Assembly: GCF_025642135.1 (NCBI RefSeq)
Contig: NZ_CP106793.1
Location: forward strand, 3,600,001-3,664,000
Source of the DNA: Streptomyces cynarae
GTDB lineage: Bacteria > Actinomycetota > Actinomycetes > Streptomycetales > Streptomycetaceae
Direction: 5' to 3'
DNA: 64,000 nucleotides
The notes below the pieces were generated by a model. It did no database searches. It was not told the DNA's origin and worked only from the letters and a program-made list of their open reading frames with translations. Position numbers and translations under genes: made by a program. Positions 49,233-55,107 of this stretch are shown here, piece after piece; within the stretch, counting starts at the first letter, position 1, and each line of letters begins with the position of its first letter.

Positions 49233-50729
49233 ATGGCGTCCAGCCTGACGAAGGACTCGGTCCGCCCGGGCACCCCCGGGTCCGAGAAGACCTTCTTCGG
49301 CCACCCCCGCGGACTGGCCACCCTCTTCATGACCGAGATGTGGGAGAGGTTCTCCTACTACGGCATGAAGGCCCTCCTCCCGCTGTACCTGGTGGCACCG
49401 GGCGGCCTGCACATGAGCGCGGCCACCGCTACCGCGATCTACTCGGTGTACCTGTCGCTCGTATACCTGCTCGCCCTGCCGGGCGGCTGGTTCGCCGACC
49501 GGGTCCTCGGTCCGCGCAAGACGGTCGCCGTGGCGGGCTTCGTCATCATGCTGGGCCACCTCACGCTGGCCCTGCCCACCGCCGGTACCTTCTTCGCCGG
49601 TCTCGGCCTCGTCGCGATCGGCTCGGGCCTGCTGAAGGCGAACATCTCCACGATGGTCGGCCACCTCTACGAGGGCCCGGACGACCCGCGCCGCGACGGT
49701 GGCTTCACCCTCTTCTACATCGGCATCAACCTCGGCGCCTTCGCCGCGCCGCTGGTCATCGGCACCGTCGGCCAGAACGTCAACTGGCACCTGGGCTTCG
49801 CGCTCGCCGCGCTCGGCATGGCGCTCGGCCTCGGCCAGTTCCTGCTCGGGGGCCGTCACCTCAGCTCCCACTCGCAGGTCGTCCCGACCCCGCTGACGGC
49901 CGAGCAGAAGAAGGCCACCCTGACCAAGGCCGCCCTGTGGGCGGGCGTCGCGGTCGTCTTCTACGCGATCGTCGGTTTCTCCGGCGTCTACACGCTGAAC
50001 TGGCTGCTGGTCCCGATCACCCTCGCCGGCCTGATCATCCCGGTCCTGGTCATCGCCCGCATCAAGCGGGACAAGGAGCTGGACCGCACCGAGCAGTCGA
50101 AGATGACGGCGTACATCTGGTTCTTCGTCGCCGCGGCCGTATTCTGGATGATCTACGACCAGGGCGGCTCGACGGTGTCGCTGTTCGCCGACTCCTCGGC
50201 GAAGAACACGATCTTCGGCTGGAACTTCCCGGTCTCCTGGTACCAGTCGGTCAACCCGGTCATGATCATGGCGCTGGCCCCGGTCTTCGCCTGGGCGTGG
50301 CTGGCGCTGGCCCGGCGCGGCAAGGAGCCGAGCACCGCGGTGAAGTTCGCGATGGGCCTGGTCCTGATCGGCGCGTCCTTCTTCCTCTTCCTCGCCCCGC
50401 TGGGGATCGCCGACGGCGGTCACAAGGCGGCCGCGATGTGGCTGGTGGCGATCTACTTCGTGCAGACGATCGGTGAGCTGACGCTGTCGCCGGTGGGTCT
50501 GTCGGTCACCACGAAGATGGCGCCGGCGAAGTACGCCTCCCAGATGATGGGTGTCTGGTTCCTGGCCGTCACCGCCGGTGACGCCACGACCGGTCTGCTG
50601 TCCATCGCGGGCGTCGACCTGAACAAGACGGGCATCGTGGCCCTGCAGGCCGCGCTCGCCGTGCTCGCCGGTCTGGCGGTGTGGATGTACCGCAGCAAGG
50701 TCAAGGAGCTCATGGGCGACGTGCACTGA
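49233..50729 (+). CDS. POT/PTR family proton-coupled oligopeptide transporter
   Basis: A 498-residue, roughly 12-14-segment symporter for di- and tripeptides. The ExxERFxYY motif is EMWERFSYYG; the loop motif GGWFADRVLGPRKTV and the second POT signature FTLFYIGINLGAFAAPLVIG are clear; FVQTIGELTLSPVGLSVTTKMAP is the conserved late helix. AAGGAA precedes the ATG at 49233. The longer frame upstream is low-quality leader. Confidence 0.95.
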   Translation: MASSLTKDSVRPGTPGSEKTFFGHPRGLATLFMTEMWERFSYYGMKALLPLYLVAPGGLHMSAATATAIYSVYLSLVYLLALPGGWFADRVLGPRKTVAVAGFVIMLGHLTLALPTAGTFFAGLGLVAIGSGLLKANISTMVGHLYEGPDDPRRDGGFTLFYIGINLGAFAAPLVIGTVGQNVNWHLGFALAALGMALGLGQFLLGGRHLSSHSQVVPTPLTAEQKKATLTKAALWAGVAVVFYAIVGFSGVYTLNWLLVPITLAGLIIPVLVIARIKRDKELDRTEQSKMTAYIWFFVAAAVFWMIYDQGGSTVSLFADSSAKNTIFGWNFPVSWYQSVNPVMIMALAPVFAWAWLALARRGKEPSTAVKFAMGLVLIGASFFLFLAPLGIADGGHKAAAMWLVAIYFVQTIGELTLSPVGLSVTTKMAPAKYASQMMGVWFLAVTAGDATTGLLSIAGVDLNKTGIVALQAALAVLAGLAVWMYRSKVKELMGDVH

Positions 50730-50746
50730 CGTCGCTCCCGGGCTCT

Positions 50747-50786
50747 CGGAGGGCCGCCGCACCCACGTGGATGCGGCGGCCCTCCG
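50747..50786. terminator. bidirectional terminator
   Basis: Perfect 15-bp inverted repeat CGGAGGGCCGCCGCA with a 10-base loop, between the peptide transporter and the surface-protein operon. Confidence 0.9.
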
Positions 50787-50799
50787 CCGTTCTCCGGGG

Positions 50800-52218
50800 T
50801 CAGCGGACGCGGCGGGGCAGGAACGCGAAGACCGCGCCGCCCAGCAGGATCGCCGTGCCCGCCACCAGGCCGAGGGCCTTGAGGGTTCCGTGGTCGTCCG
50901 TGCCCGTCTGGGCCAGGCCGCCGCCTGTCGTACCCCCGGCCGTCGTACCGCCGCCCGTCGTACCGCCCGACGACGTGCCTCCGGACGTCCCGCCCGGCTG
51001 CTGGGCGGTGCCGAGCGTCAGCGACACCTCCGTCTTCGTCGGTGTGCACGTCGTGGTCGTGCCGAGGGCCTTGATGGTCAGCACGCCCGGCGACAGCGTC
51101 GACTCCCCGCTCGCGCCCGGTTTGTACGTTCCCGTCAGGTCCGGGATCTCGATCGGATCACCCGACTTGACGTCCTGCGTGTTCGCCGGGCCCTCGACAT
51201 GGACCGTGCCCTTGTCCGCGCCGCCCACCACGACCTCCATCGACGGTTTCACCGAGCCCTTCGGGATGTCCACCGGGCTGTTCATCACCGACTTCTTGAA
51301 CCGCACGGTGAGATCGAAGTTCCCGCCGTCCTTCTTGGCGTTGATCTGCACCGGCGACGTGGCGCTCTTGTCGCCGATGGGCGTTTTGCAGGCGTACGGG
51401 ACCTGGACCTCCTTGCCCGTGAAGTCCGTCTGCCCGCCGCCGTCGCCGCCGGTCGCACTCGCGCTCGCGGTCGGGGACGTCGACGCGGAGGAGGTGGCCG
51501 TCGGGGACGTCGCGGTGGAGGACGCGGTCGGCAGGCCCGTCGGCGGGTTGGTCGGGAGGAGTGTCGTCGGCACCACCGTCGGCAGCCCGCCCGTCGTACC
51601 GCCCACTCCCCCGCTCCCGCCGGTCACCTTGATGGCCGCCGCCGGTCCAACCCTCTCCTTCGGGGTGCACTTGGTGTCCGTGGAGATCGGCTTGTTGACG
51701 TTGATGGTGTAGGCGTCCGGGGTCAGCGTCACCTCGCCCGCCGACGTCAGCTTCAGGGTGCCCGTCATGTCGGACAGCTTCATGTCGCTGTTCTTGGGGA
51801 TCGGCGGGTTCGACCGCGGCCCCGCCATGGCGATGCCGGCGGTCTGCGCGCCGCTCGCCTTCAGCGTGCCGGTCGGCTTGACGGTGTCCTTGTCCAGGTC
51901 GAGCACGTCGGGGTTCTTGGAAGCGGCCTGCACGAACTTCCAGGTGACCGTGACCTCGTCGCCGACCTTGGCCTCGGCCGGTGCCGTGATCTCCACCTTC
52001 GTGGTGCCCTCGACCGGAGGCAGCCCGGAGATCGGGGGCGGGATGCATTCGGTGGCGTACGACACCTCGGCCGCCTGGGCCGGTGCCGCGGCGACGCCGA
52101 GCAGAAGCCCCGCACCGCACAGCATCAGGGCCGCACCTGCCGCGGACGCCCTTCTCCCACTGTCACCGGCCGCGCTGTTTCCGCCCGCCGCCTTGGACAC
52201 TCTCCGTTGCGTTCTCAC
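50800..52218 (-). CDS. sortase-anchored surface protein with two related domains (LAQTG)
   Basis: A 472-residue exported protein. Signal peptide about 1-49 (GAALMLCGAGLLLGVAAAPAQA); domain 1 about 50-215, with Cys in TECIPPP and DTKCTPK; a Thr/Ser/Gly-rich spacer with short TSPTATSSAS repeats; domain 2 (VPYACKTPIGDKSATSPVQI ... ALGTTTTCTPTKTEVSLTL); a GGTTGG-type wall spacer; then LAQTG at 435-439, a membrane segment and RR tail. LAxTG is the motif of class E sortases, which anchor chaplins. Domain 2 resembles the domain of the protein at 54228-54926. Last gene of the operon; GTGA overlap with the preceding one. Confidence 0.85.
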   Translation of the reverse strand: MRTQRRVSKAAGGNSAAGDSGRRASAAGAALMLCGAGLLLGVAAAPAQAAEVSYATECIPPPISGLPPVEGTTKVEITAPAEAKVGDEVTVTWKFVQAASKNPDVLDLDKDTVKPTGTLKASGAQTAGIAMAGPRSNPPIPKNSDMKLSDMTGTLKLTSAGEVTLTPDAYTINVNKPISTDTKCTPKERVGPAAAIKVTGGSGGVGGTTGGLPTVVPTTLLPTNPPTGLPTASSTATSPTATSSASTSPTASASATGGDGGGQTDFTGKEVQVPYACKTPIGDKSATSPVQINAKKDGGNFDLTVRFKKSVMNSPVDIPKGSVKPSMEVVVGGADKGTVHVEGPANTQDVKSGDPIEIPDLTGTYKPGASGESTLSPGVLTIKALGTTTTCTPTKTEVSLTLGTAQQPGGTSGGTSSGGTTGGGTTAGGTTGGGLAQTGTDDHGTLKALGLVAGTAILLGGAVFAFLPRRVR

Positions 52219-53291
52219 GTGTTTCCCTTCGTCGGGGTCGCCGGACTGTCCTCGTGCGGTGCGGAGAGCCGGCCGCTCGCCGCGGTCCCCGGATCCGTGT
52301 CCGGGGTGAACCACGGCAGGGCCGAAGTGGTGCCGGTCCTCGCGGGAGCGGGCGGCTTCGGCGGGCGCAGGGCGACGCCTGGCAGCCGAAGCCCCCGGTG
52401 GCGTACCGCCGCGCCGCGCGGCCGCACCCGGTCCACGACCGTCATGCCGACGCGGAACACAGCCGTCGGCACGACCAGGCAGGCCAGGACCCAGAAGACG
52501 GTCACGCCCCAGGGCCGGCCGACACCCCACGGCTGCTCGGCGAGGACCTTGCCGCCGTACTCGAGGGAGACCGTGTAGTCACCGTGGGCGCCCGCCGTGA
52601 GCTCCACCGGCAGCCTGACCTCCGCCTTCCTGCCGGGCGCGACCGTGCCGTGCCACTGCCGCTCGTCCCACTGCGGCGCGAACACGCCGTGCGAGGTGCC
52701 GACCCGGAAGACGGGATCCCTCACCGGCGACGAGCCGACGTTGCCGACCGTGAACACGAGTGTGCGCTGCGGCGGCGCCCCGAACCAGGTCAGCAGCCCA
52801 CTGGAGCCGTCGAGACGGGTGTCCGTCAGCACCGAAAGCCGCCCGGCGGCGGACTCGGCGGGCAGCGGCCTGACGGCATGCCCGGCGACCTGGAAGGCCG
52901 CGTCGGCGGTGGCCCCGGCCCCGGTGACGGTGGCGACGTGCACCACGCAGGGGCACGGCGCGGGCGGCTCGGCCACCGGCAGCTTCCTGCTGAAATGGCC
53001 CCGCGCGTCGGTCGTGACGGCCCGTCCGTCCGCGTTGGCGCAGGAGTTGGTGCCGCCGATCACCCCCCGGGACGGCGTGGCCTGCCCGCAGATGAGGATC
53101 ATCAGCAGCGTCTTCGCCCGCCAGCCGCTGCCGGACACGGTGAGCGAGCCGCCGGTACCCGCCTGGGTCGCGGACAACTCGACGGCCGGTTTGCCGGCGC
53201 CCCAGGCGGGCGCCGCCAGGGGCGCCAGGACGAGCGCGAGCACCGCCACGGGCGCCAGCACCGCCACCAGTGCGGAGATACGCCCCTTCAC
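52215..53291 (-). CDS. secreted membrane-anchored protein, neocarzinostatin-like N-terminal domain
   Basis: A 358-residue protein: signal-like segment (about 5-32), a beta domain (about 33-135) with LTVSGSGWRAKTLLMILICG, GGTNSCANADGRAVTTDARG and PCPCVVHVA whose strand and Cys pattern resembles the neocarzinostatin-like fold, a second beta domain (RTLVFTVGNVGSSPVRDPVF), one membrane segment (about 270-290) and a Pro-rich cytoplasmic tail. It overlaps both neighbours by four bases. The fold assignment is inference. Confidence 0.75.
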   Translation of the reverse strand: MKGRISALVAVLAPVAVLALVLAPLAAPAWGAGKPAVELSATQAGTGGSLTVSGSGWRAKTLLMILICGQATPSRGVIGGTNSCANADGRAVTTDARGHFSRKLPVAEPPAPCPCVVHVATVTGAGATADAAFQVAGHAVRPLPAESAAGRLSVLTDTRLDGSSGLLTWFGAPPQRTLVFTVGNVGSSPVRDPVFRVGTSHGVFAPQWDERQWHGTVAPGRKAEVRLPVELTAGAHGDYTVSLEYGGKVLAEQPWGVGRPWGVTVFWVLACLVVPTAVFRVGMTVVDRVRPRGAAVRHRGLRLPGVALRPPKPPAPARTGTTSALPWFTPDTDPGTAASGRLSAPHEDSPATPTKGNT

Positions 53292-54199
53292 CTCAGCGCT
53301 CCCGTCGACTCGGGGTCCGGACGCGGCCGTTCACCGGTCTGTCCGTCCGGCGGCCGGTGCCTGCGACGCCGTACGGCGACACCGGTGACCGCGGCCGCGA
53401 GCAGCCCCGCCCCGCTGCCCGCCACCGCGCCCCACGGCACGAACCGCGCCGACGCCGACCCGGAAGCGTGCGCCCCGCCCGCCGCCGTGACCGTGACCTG
53501 GACGTGCACCGCATCGAGCACCGGGTGGTGCGGCCACGGCTCGGTGAGCCGGACCCGGCGGCCGGGCGGCAGGTCGAGGGACAGGGTGCGCTCGGGGCGG
53601 TCCAGGACCCGGCCGAGGACACCGTCGGCGCGCACGGCGAGCCTCGGGGTCAGCACGGTCGTACCGCGGTTGACCAGCTCGTAGGTGATCCGTCCGCCGT
53701 GCACCGCCATGTGCTCCACGGTCAGCGCGGACAACGTCGGTCCGACGACGCGGAGTCGGAGGCGTACGGCGGTGGAGCGGCCGCCCGCGCTCGCCACGAC
53801 CGAGCCCGCGTGGTCACCGGGCGCCGCTCCCGCGGGCACCGCCACGGTGAACGGCACGTCGGCGCGGGAACGGGCGGGCACGGTCACCGAGACGGTGCGC
53901 ACCGGGAGCCGGTGCCCTCCCGTCGTGCCGGCGAAGGCGATCCAGGGGCCGGAGTCGCCCGGTGCCCCCCGAGCCTCGTGGGCGCCGCTCAGCCGGACGG
54001 TCAGCGGCCGCCCGCCCGGGTTGCGCACCGAAACGGCGTCCTCGAGGACCGTCCCGGGCTCGCCCTCCGCGTACACGTACGGCCGCCCGCCCGCACCGCC
54101 CAGGGACCAGCCGGCGTCGGCGACGGCGGGCGCGGCGGCCAGCGGGCTCGCACAGGCGACGGCGAGAGCGAGGGTGGAGGCGGGGCGGACGTACGGCAT
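53288..54199 (-). CDS. secreted WxL-interacting (DUF916)-like protein
   Basis: A 303-residue protein: signal peptide (cleavage near APAVADA at 28), a DUF916-like beta domain (PGTVLEDAVSVRNPGGRPLTV, VPARSRADVPFTVAVPAGA, PGDHAGSVVASAGG), a following DUF3324-like domain (LSALTVEHMAVHGGRITYEL, VNRGTTVLTPRL), one membrane segment (about 254-275) and a basic tail. This architecture resembles the peptidoglycan-binding partners of WxL surface proteins in Firmicutes. No WxL protein is visible nearby. Confidence 0.72.
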   Translation of the reverse strand: MPYVRPASTLALAVACASPLAAAPAVADAGWSLGGAGGRPYVYAEGEPGTVLEDAVSVRNPGGRPLTVRLSGAHEARGAPGDSGPWIAFAGTTGGHRLPVRTVSVTVPARSRADVPFTVAVPAGAAPGDHAGSVVASAGGRSTAVRLRLRVVGPTLSALTVEHMAVHGGRITYELVNRGTTVLTPRLAVRADGVLGRVLDRPERTLSLDLPPGRRVRLTEPWPHHPVLDAVHVQVTVTAAGGAHASGSASARFVPWGAVAGSGAGLLAAAVTGVAVRRRRHRPPDGQTGERPRPDPESTGALR

Positions 54200-54227
54200 G
54201 GGGACTCCTGCTGGTACGGAGGTCGGC

Positions 54228-54926
54228 TCAGCGGCGTACCGCCTGGTTGCGGCGGGTCAGCCACAGCACCCCGGCCGAGCCGGCGAGCAGGACGGTGCTG
54301 CCGAGGGTGCCGAGGGCGACCACGGAGTCCTCGGGTCCGGTCTGCGGCAGCTGCCCGCCGGAGGCGGAGCCGCTTGCGCCGGAGCCGCTCGGGGCCGAGC
54401 CGGAGGTGCCGCCGCCGGCCGCGGTGACGTCGAGGGTCAGGGACGGGCCCGGGTGGCCGGCGGGCGTGCACGTGGTCGTCGTACCGAGCGCCTTGATGGT
54501 GAGCACACCCGCGGTGAAGGTGACCTTGCCGGTCTTCCCGGGCGTGTACGTGCCGCTCAGGTCGCTGATCTTGATGGGGGTGTCGGCGGGGATCGCCGCC
54601 TGGTTGGCCGGGCCCGTGACCGTCAGGGTGCCGCTGTCGGCGCCGCCCAGCACGATGGTGGCGCTCGGGTTCATCGCGCCCTTGCCCAGTTCGACCGGGC
54701 TGGAGGAGACGCCCTTCTGCCAGGACATGGTGATCCTGTAGACGCTGCCGCTCCGGACGCCCTTGATGTCGATGGGCGAGACGGCGCTCTTGTCGCCGAT
54801 CGGCGTCCTGCACTGGTAGTCGATGTCGACGACGTCGGCCCTGGCCACGTGAGCGGCCGTCAGGACCGCCGAGCCGGCCAGGACGGCGGCGGACGCGAGC
54901 GCCGCGCTTCGTTTGTGGTACGACAC
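54228..54926 (-). CDS. sortase-anchored surface protein (LPQTG), single domain
   Basis: A 232-residue exported protein: signal peptide (ALASAAVLAGSAVLTAAHVA), one domain (IDYQCRTPIGDKSAVSPIDI ... LKIKALGTTTTCTP-type ending, two Cys), a short Ser/Gly spacer, LPQTG at 193-197, membrane segment and RRNQAVRR tail. The domain is clearly paralogous to domain 2 of the 472-residue protein (shared TPIGDKSA, VVxGGADxGT, TIKALGTTTTCTP). First gene of the operon, 28 bp ahead of the WxL-interacting-like gene. Confidence 0.85.
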   Translation of the reverse strand: MSYHKRSAALASAAVLAGSAVLTAAHVARADVVDIDYQCRTPIGDKSAVSPIDIKGVRSGSVYRITMSWQKGVSSSPVELGKGAMNPSATIVLGGADSGTLTVTGPANQAAIPADTPIKISDLSGTYTPGKTGKVTFTAGVLTIKALGTTTTCTPAGHPGPSLTLDVTAAGGGTSGSAPSGSGASGSASGGQLPQTGPEDSVVALGTLGSTVLLAGSAGVLWLTRRNQAVRR

Positions 54927-55107
54927 GGTCCCCTCATTCCTGACGGCACATCAGATCGGGCCGTCAAGGTACGCCCGGGGCCTTGGGGAGGGAAGACACA
55001 GTGCGCGCGGGATCCGTGGCAATCGGGCGCGCGAGGCGTGTCCTACGAAGAAGGGTTCGAACCGTGGGTAACCGGAGGTCAGCCACCCACGAGGCGACCG
55101 AGCCGCG

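Follow-up and report, generated by a model that had tools for sequence, protein, structure and literature searches.

Introduction

Most reports of WxL systems concern Bacilli: in the part of a survey drawn on here, more than 91% of 938 WxL sequences came from Firmicutes, and 99% of those from Bacilli (PMC9772566). In the WxL/WxLIP (csc) clusters of Lactobacillales and Bacillales, a DUF916 protein (WxLIP) with a signal peptide, two Ig-like domains and a membrane helix is encoded together with exported, wall-associated partners, and the portions consulted of two reports describe a small LPxTG protein that often lies beside the WxL proteins of Firmicute clusters (PMC1534035, PMC9772566). Here, we analyzed a 64-kb window of Streptomyces cynarae DNA (G000:C1:3600001-3664000; genome size 9.36 Mb, two contigs) containing a four-gene operon, G1 to G4, which seems, from its sequence, to be related to gut-bacterial WxL systems and to have two sortase-anchored proteins in place of the wall-binding WxL partner. 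The operon shares with csc clusters a DUF916-family protein of the same architecture and exported partners, and differs from them in that it has no WxL or DUF3324 match, carries on two sortase anchors a domain, termed D, that is common to G1 (one copy) and G4 (two copies), contains an additional protein, G3, and has a short hairpin in its DUF916-family protein, G2.

Because Firmicute csc clusters often include an LPxTG protein, the presence of a sortase substrate in a WxL-type cluster has precedent; the operon is unusual in lacking WxL and in having the cargo domain of WxL, D, on sortase anchors. We assign a probability of about 0.6 to the reading that G1 to G4 form a membrane-wall surface complex that was derived once from a WxL/WxLIP cluster by exchange of the anchor. 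No description of this operon or of such an exchange was found among the papers listed in searches of the open-licence literature. The chaplins ChpA-C, Actinoplanes CwpA/CwpB and SspA are likewise exported wall proteins with sortase signals, sometimes encoded in a two-gene operon; unlike G1 and G4, they are presented without mention of a DUF916 or G3 partner in the consulted parts of their published descriptions, on which the comparison is based.

Kinship of G2 with the WxLIP (DUF916) family

The first-pass annotation had described G2 as a DUF916-like, WxL-interacting-like protein and had proposed a DUF916/DUF3324 profile search of its reading frame. This direct search fell short, as window G2 scored 12.6 bits with PF06030 (DUF916/PGBD) against a cut-off of 27.3 (E 0.14), and no DUF3324/HBD match was found for G2 at E <= 1, nor was one among the 12 families in 113 G2 homologues at E <= 0.1. 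These homologues (alignment A1, which includes the window protein) were taken from the best 120 of 942 matches after removal by hand of 7 short, partial or near-duplicate sequences; the named relatives of G2 among the matches listed are Streptomyces, one of them from S. avermitilis. In A1, 36 of the 113 homologues matched PF06030 at E <= 0.1 (best 1.9e-4). A DUF916 paralogue of G2 in the S. cynarae genome passed the PF06030 cut-off (35.8 vs 27.3 bits), and the G2 family matched the actinobacterial DUF916 family of this paralogue profile to profile at E 4e-61. When the profile of that actinobacterial family was searched against the PDB, only EfmWxLIP1 was matched.

Structural comparison pointed in the same direction. 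G2 has two Ig-like domains, as in solved WxLIP, and the highest-ranking PDB matches of its structural model were WxLIP of Enterococcus faecium, with an unrelated chain (8jmw) at equal Z. Hydrophobic peaks at residues 9 and 258, together with a helix at residues 256-274 of the model, are consistent with a signal peptide and a C-terminal membrane helix; for all four proteins, signal peptides were assigned from hydrophobic N-termini. Sequence searches of the PDB with the G2 family, the G4 family and G3 returned nothing convincing, and one with a distant DUF916 protein returned no match. Together, the profile-profile match, the paralogue and the modeled structure support placing G2 in the WxLIP (DUF916) family or close to it as a derivative, in agreement with the earlier assignment. 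To the alternative that G2 is a generic two-Ig membrane protein whose likeness to DUF916 reflects convergence among beta-sandwiches we give hardly any weight, since the family that it matches profile to profile contains members that pass PF06030 and has a profile that finds EfmWxLIP1 by sequence.

D and G3 in WxL-anchored clusters

We found no WxL match at E <= 10 in a six-frame search of the 64-kb window. Elsewhere in the S. cynarae genome (locus L052), the DUF916 paralogue adjoins a protein that joins a D domain to a WxL-like one, and pairs of D-WxL and DUF916 genes also occur in actinobacterial loci L053-L056. Because D-WxL adjoins DUF916 in the same genome and in other actinobacteria, and the window is without WxL, the suggestion that sortase substrates replace the WxL partner in this operon gains support. 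The same comparison supports the view that G1 and G4 share their D domain with WxL-like proteins encoded beside DUF916 elsewhere, in which D is the cargo portion. In the portions of the open-licence literature consulted, D-WxL and DUF916 clusters were not found as a described system.

G3 extends this kinship. When 296 genomes of the class were searched, twelve G3-like loci were found outside Streptomyces, in 11 genomes, and ten of the twelve contain both a DUF916 gene and a WxL gene; the other two are L110, with a weak G3 match only, and L111, with none. The WxL, DUF916 and G3 genes are all co-directional in L101 and L106-L109; in L100 and L102-L105, which come from one family and include three near-identical loci, DUF916 lies with G3, and WxL is nearby on the opposite strand. 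The order D-WxL, DUF916, G3 is found in L101 (Thermomonospora echinospora DSM 43163) and in Actinomadura sp. BRA 177 (L157). The profiles used to scan loci were built partly from these same loci, so that scores there are partly so by construction, and the Pfam results are independent of them; one locus (L063) had no match in the first scan and a match in a later one. These findings support G3 as a third component of such clusters in a number of actinobacteria other than Streptomyces. The D-WxL/DUF916/G3 clusters, which have in common with the operon the D domain, the DUF916 family and, in Thermomonospora and Actinomadura, G3, could resemble a possible ancestor of it. They differ from it in having a WxL-like anchor instead of LPxTG and LAxTG, and, in L052-L056 and L101, a long hairpin in the DUF916 protein. 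The D-WxL, DUF916, G3 arrangement also occurs on a 5.2-kb contig (L070) of a Streptomyces assembly, in which contamination is possible, and two loci of one family (L120, L123) in a phylum-wide sample carry further WxL, DUF916 and G3-like sets.

The WxL-like partners carry the first motif (GWSL or GWDV) in 12 of 12 cases, and the second is LTL or similar, with no W. When ten other partner proteins were compared with the Pfam WxL family, two reached the cut-off, six fell below it and two were unmatched; no NCBIfam WxL name was found for the eight partner proteins examined, and neither the D-WxL profile nor L101 gave a convincing match in sequence searches of the PDB.

DUF916 genes with WxL-like genes nearby were found across the sampled Actinomycetota. 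DUF916 proteins were present in 54 of 296 sampled genomes, and we fetched 40 further DUF916 places from 32 of these 54. A WxL gene was found in the locus at 25 of the 40, none of which had been used in building the WxL profile, and a D domain at none. As WxL is this widespread among DUF916 loci, we infer that the WxL setting is ancestral. In a midpoint-rooted tree of DUF916 proteins (51 rows, hairpin columns excluded), the 24 sortase-type proteins and L115 alone formed one clade with support of 100/99; L115 is a locus with G2 and G3 but no recognizable D protein, from a Streptomyces genome outside the conservation sample below. The change between WxL and sortase settings is needed once on this tree if L115 is left unscored and twice if it is given its own state, and a sortase-type clade without L115 was not rejected (p-AU 0.20).

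The annotation of G3 as a neocarzinostatin-like membrane protein held for the membrane helix (hydrophobic peak at residue 263) and for a weak family likeness, and stopped short of a family assignment: the match to Pfam neocarzinostatin (PF00960) is below threshold at 21.7 vs 25 bits (E 2e-4), and NCBIfam NF040680 gave 30.6 against a cut-off of 86. Four cysteines of G3 are invariant in 8 distant relatives. G3 therefore resembles the neocarzinostatin-type chromoproteins in its N-terminal domain, by that sub-threshold match, and in the conserved cysteines, and is unlike them in being membrane-anchored with an extra domain.

Cargo of WxL-like proteins and the possible ligand of D

Elsewhere, the WxL-like proteins of related clusters carry HtaA, GH18 chitinase or phosphatase-like cargo, and D is therefore expected, by analogy, to bind something outside the cell. 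A WxL-like domain ends a GH18 chitinase in L124 (6398-8446, minus strand) and a purple-acid-phosphatase-like protein in L062 (3214-5652, plus strand), each with an adjoining DUF916 gene. The consulted part of one report mentions DUF916 next to metallophosphatases in the vicinity of a metal-binding protein (PMC12537917).

This cargo also raises the question of whether the operon is a nutrient-capture relay, in which D or the neocarzinostatin-like domain of G3 would pick up a small hydrophobic ligand (haem, for example) and hand it across the wall to a transporter. The WxL protein beside DUF916 and G3 in L107 and L109 carries the haem-binding domain HtaA (170 and 145 bits), L106 and L109 adjoin a Peripla_BP_2 binding protein and L109 also a FecCD permease (haem/siderophore transport families), and the neocarzinostatin-like domain is a ligand-carrier fold. 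However, three examined neighbors of L107 are not transport genes, no HtaA gene was found in the S. cynarae genome, and the transporter gene next to the operon in the window is convergent to it rather than co-directional, leaving us to regard such a relay as distinctly improbable.

The best match of G4 by VIA-align in structure comparison was 3lso. An HtaA-like identity for D was set aside, as PDB relatives of HtaA are absent from the listed G4 structure matches, an absence that does not exclude it.

Sortase signals of G1 and G4

The D domain of G1 is 51% identical to the second copy in G4 over 118 aa and 31% identical to the first over 106 aa. At its C-terminus, G1 has LPQTG, a hydrophobic stretch and RRNQAVRR, an arrangement recognized by NCBIfam LPXTG_anchor (23.4 bits, cut-off 15.9) and scored below the cut-off by Pfam Gram_pos_anchor (16.9, cut-off 20). 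G4 ends in LAQTG, a hydrophobic stretch and RRVR. As neither Pfam nor NCBIfam finds an anchor family in G4, its sorting signal rests on the motif and its conservation; L[PA]xTG, a hydrophobic stretch and a basic tail are thus seen in both proteins, in G4 by motif only. LAxTG ends all 86 aligned G4-family proteins (alignment A2, comprising 85 homologues and window G4, from the best 120 of 1736 matches). Among 27 operon loci, every single-D protein (26/26) ends in LPxTG, with Q in 16, K in 6 and R in 4 at the variable position, and every double-D protein (21/21) ends in LAxTG.

We detected 9 sortase matches over the cut-off in the S. cynarae genome. Because Streptomyces class E sortases cleave LAxTG peptides in vitro, according to the consulted part of the report (PMC5148588), G4 fits as a candidate class E sortase substrate. 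No Pfam family matched window G4 at E <= 1 and NCBIfam gave one unrelated match (E 0.036); across the 86 members of A2, the Pfam matches were scattered and weak (best E 0.0035 in one protein, at most 7/86 for any family) and were disregarded.

Length of the F-G hairpin in DUF916 proteins

In the aligned DUF916 proteins, the F-G hairpin of the first domain spans 18-26 residues in all 24 sortase-operon proteins, the window protein included, 21 residues in L115 and 21-25 residues in 113/113 proteins of A1. Outside the G2 clade, it spans 29-43 residues in 66/66 DUF916 proteins: 31-40 in 26/26 that are linked to WxL, 29-43 in a further 25 WxL-linked proteins, and 30-35 in the 15 for which no WxL gene was found nearby. 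According to the consulted part of one study, in which the hairpin concerned is not specified, a DUF916 hairpin strand is predicted to insert into WxL (PMC10599100). The 15 long hairpins without a WxL gene nearby show that a hairpin can be long with no WxL neighbor. Because of these loci, we rejected a general rule under which hairpin length would depend on whether WxL is present. The short hairpin is a mark of the G2 clade, and its tie to the loss of WxL is plausible.

Conservation and gene loss in Streptomyces

The operon is real and conserved, and is common in Streptomyces. We queried the window genome and 60 other Streptomyces genomes (n=61) with G2, G3 and G4, and a comparison of the match tables showed that the G3 query and the G4 query (the latter picks up G1 as well) match the same 44 genomes and miss the same 17. 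The G2 query matched 43/61, including two genomes (G010, G027) that hold distant relatives only. Operon-type G2 is present in 41 of the 44 G3-bearing genomes and absent from genomes G009, G014 and G026, and in two of the operon-type genes (G013, G035) an in-frame TGA lies within the matched stretch. The double-D G4 is present in 37 genomes and absent from five (G009, G014, G026, G018, G035); it was not judged in G002 and G060, where contigs end. The 42 judged genomes therefore comprise 37 with both G2 and G4, two with G2 and no G4, three with neither, and none with G4 and no G2. At the loci of the three genomes with neither (L112, L113, L114), the operon is reduced to G1 and G3, the non-adjacent G2 and G4 are gone, and the loci fall on two branches of the G3 tree, on which well-supported branches force two changes. 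Because G2 and G4 are not neighbors, G3 lying between them, their joint loss hints that they function jointly.

These data bear on a further reading, in which WxL ancestry is shared but there is no complex: G1 and G4 would be independent coat proteins, as are chaplins and CwpA/CwpB, and G2 and G3 would be leftovers. The three genomes that retain G1 and G3 without G2 and G4 suit this reading, as does the shortened hairpin of G2. The consulted part of a study of Actinoplanes missouriensis also describes a two-gene operon of sortase substrates that matters for morphogenesis, with no membrane partner named (PMC13251363). The translational overlaps within the operon argue against it, as do the presence of all parts in 37 of the 42 judged genomes, the absence of G2 and G4 together, and the lack of any genome with G4 and no G2. 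On balance, we consider independent coat proteins somewhat unlikely, and continue to favor a membrane-wall complex.

In one operon locus (L048), G1 is missing; elsewhere in that genome, a gene at G012:C1:6863155-6863718 encodes a D protein that shares 47% identity with the second half of G4.

Proposed origin and function of the complex

In the complex that we favor, the non-covalent WxL anchor of an ancestral D-WxL, WxLIP and G3 cluster would have been swapped once for sortase signals, in the lineage from which many Streptomyces descend. G2 and G3 would be held in the membrane as platforms, and G1 (LPxTG) and G4 (LAxTG) would be attached covalently to peptidoglycan, with their D domains displayed outside. 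G2 and G4 would be closest in action, and G1 and G3 could persist when both are lost. With the WxL partner gone, the G2 hairpin would have been shortened and G2 may dock D or G3 instead. The job of the complex would probably be to capture a ligand, or to present one, at the hyphal surface. More tentatively, we suggest that a WxL machine was made covalent, such that D left WxL, was duplicated and was split over LPxTG and LAxTG proteins, two sortase routes leading to different points of the hyphal wall, and that the WxLIP lost its WxL-docking hairpin and was re-used for D.

If correct, WxL/WxLIP display would be an ancient Gram-positive platform whose anchors and cargo (D, HtaA, GH18 chitinase, phosphatase) are exchangeable. 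The comparison reveals an apparent natural experiment, with a change of wall anchor and continued kinship of cargo and scaffold, and this makes the role of a WxLIP after loss of its WxL partner testable. Streptomyces sortase substrates of unassigned role gain the context of a system, and the LPxTG/LAxTG split within one operon offers a ready in vivo test of sortase specificity. The Actinoplanes study, in the part consulted, supplies both phenotypes to look for in the Streptomyces operon and a caution: loss of two sortase-anchored proteins alters colony spreading and loss of one alters sporangium formation, and loss of CwpG, which is sortase-anchored and neocarzinostatin-like, left mycelial growth on the tested agar unchanged (PMC13251363).

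Operon layout and expression signals

The four open reading frames, their strands and the two anchors are as the first-pass annotation had described them (Table 1), and the two junctions at which it placed 4-base overlaps, G2/G3 and G3/G4, each share the four bases GTGA. The gap between G1 and G2 is 28 nt. At the loci compared with the window, genes were picked with codon-position G+C as a guide only.

Table 1. Features of the operon and its flanks, in window coordinates
Feature	Coordinates	Strand	Description or basis
G1	54926-54228	minus	GTG start, 232 aa; hydrophobic N-terminus, one D domain, LPQTG sorting signal
G2	54199-53288	minus	ATG start, 303 aa; two beta-sandwich domains and, at the C-terminus, a membrane helix; probable member or derivative of the WxLIP (DUF916) family
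G3	53291-52215	minus	GTG start, 358 aa; neocarzinostatin-like domain with four Cys, second domain, membrane helix
G4	52218-50800	minus	GTG start, 472 aa; two D domains, disordered linkers, LAQTG sorting signal
LPQTG motif of G1	54336..54350	minus	sequence and NCBIfam LPXTG_anchor
LAQTG motif of G4	50902..50916	minus	sequence and family-wide LAxTG
F-G hairpin of G2, residues G128-R150	53750..53818	minus	strands F and G, tight turn
Conserved non-coding element directly upstream of G1	54940..54998	minus	upstream-region comparison
Strong hairpin between G4 and convergent transporter gene	50748..50785		folding energy

In the element upstream of G1 (~60 bp), GGCGTACCTTG and ATCTGATG were each found in 22 of 26 upstream regions, the window counted, and the element is probably the promoter region of the operon. 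By eye, the window copy holds an inverted repeat, TGACGGC/GCCGTCA. Downstream of G4, the minus strand at 50720-50800 folds at -56.8 kcal/mol (z -6.1), with none of 200 shuffles equally stable, and the hairpin within it is a probable terminator. From the spacing and overlaps of the genes, the upstream element and the downstream hairpin, co-transcription of G1 to G4 is therefore likely.

The neighboring transporter gene, read from its sequence, may belong to the POT family. In one sampled genome (G175), DUF916 had seven matches, and all six loci fetched from it (L117, L118, L122, L125, L126, L128) have a WxL-like gene. In five Streptomyces loci (L058, L059, L060, L061, L069), the DUF916 reading frame continues without a stop into an apparent GTPase Era, and these loci adjoin a WxL-like gene, which is of D-WxL type in 4/5. 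DUF916-Era fusions in some Streptomyces were called hard to interpret in the consulted part of an earlier report (PMC10582724), and the WxL neighbor may be a clue to them.

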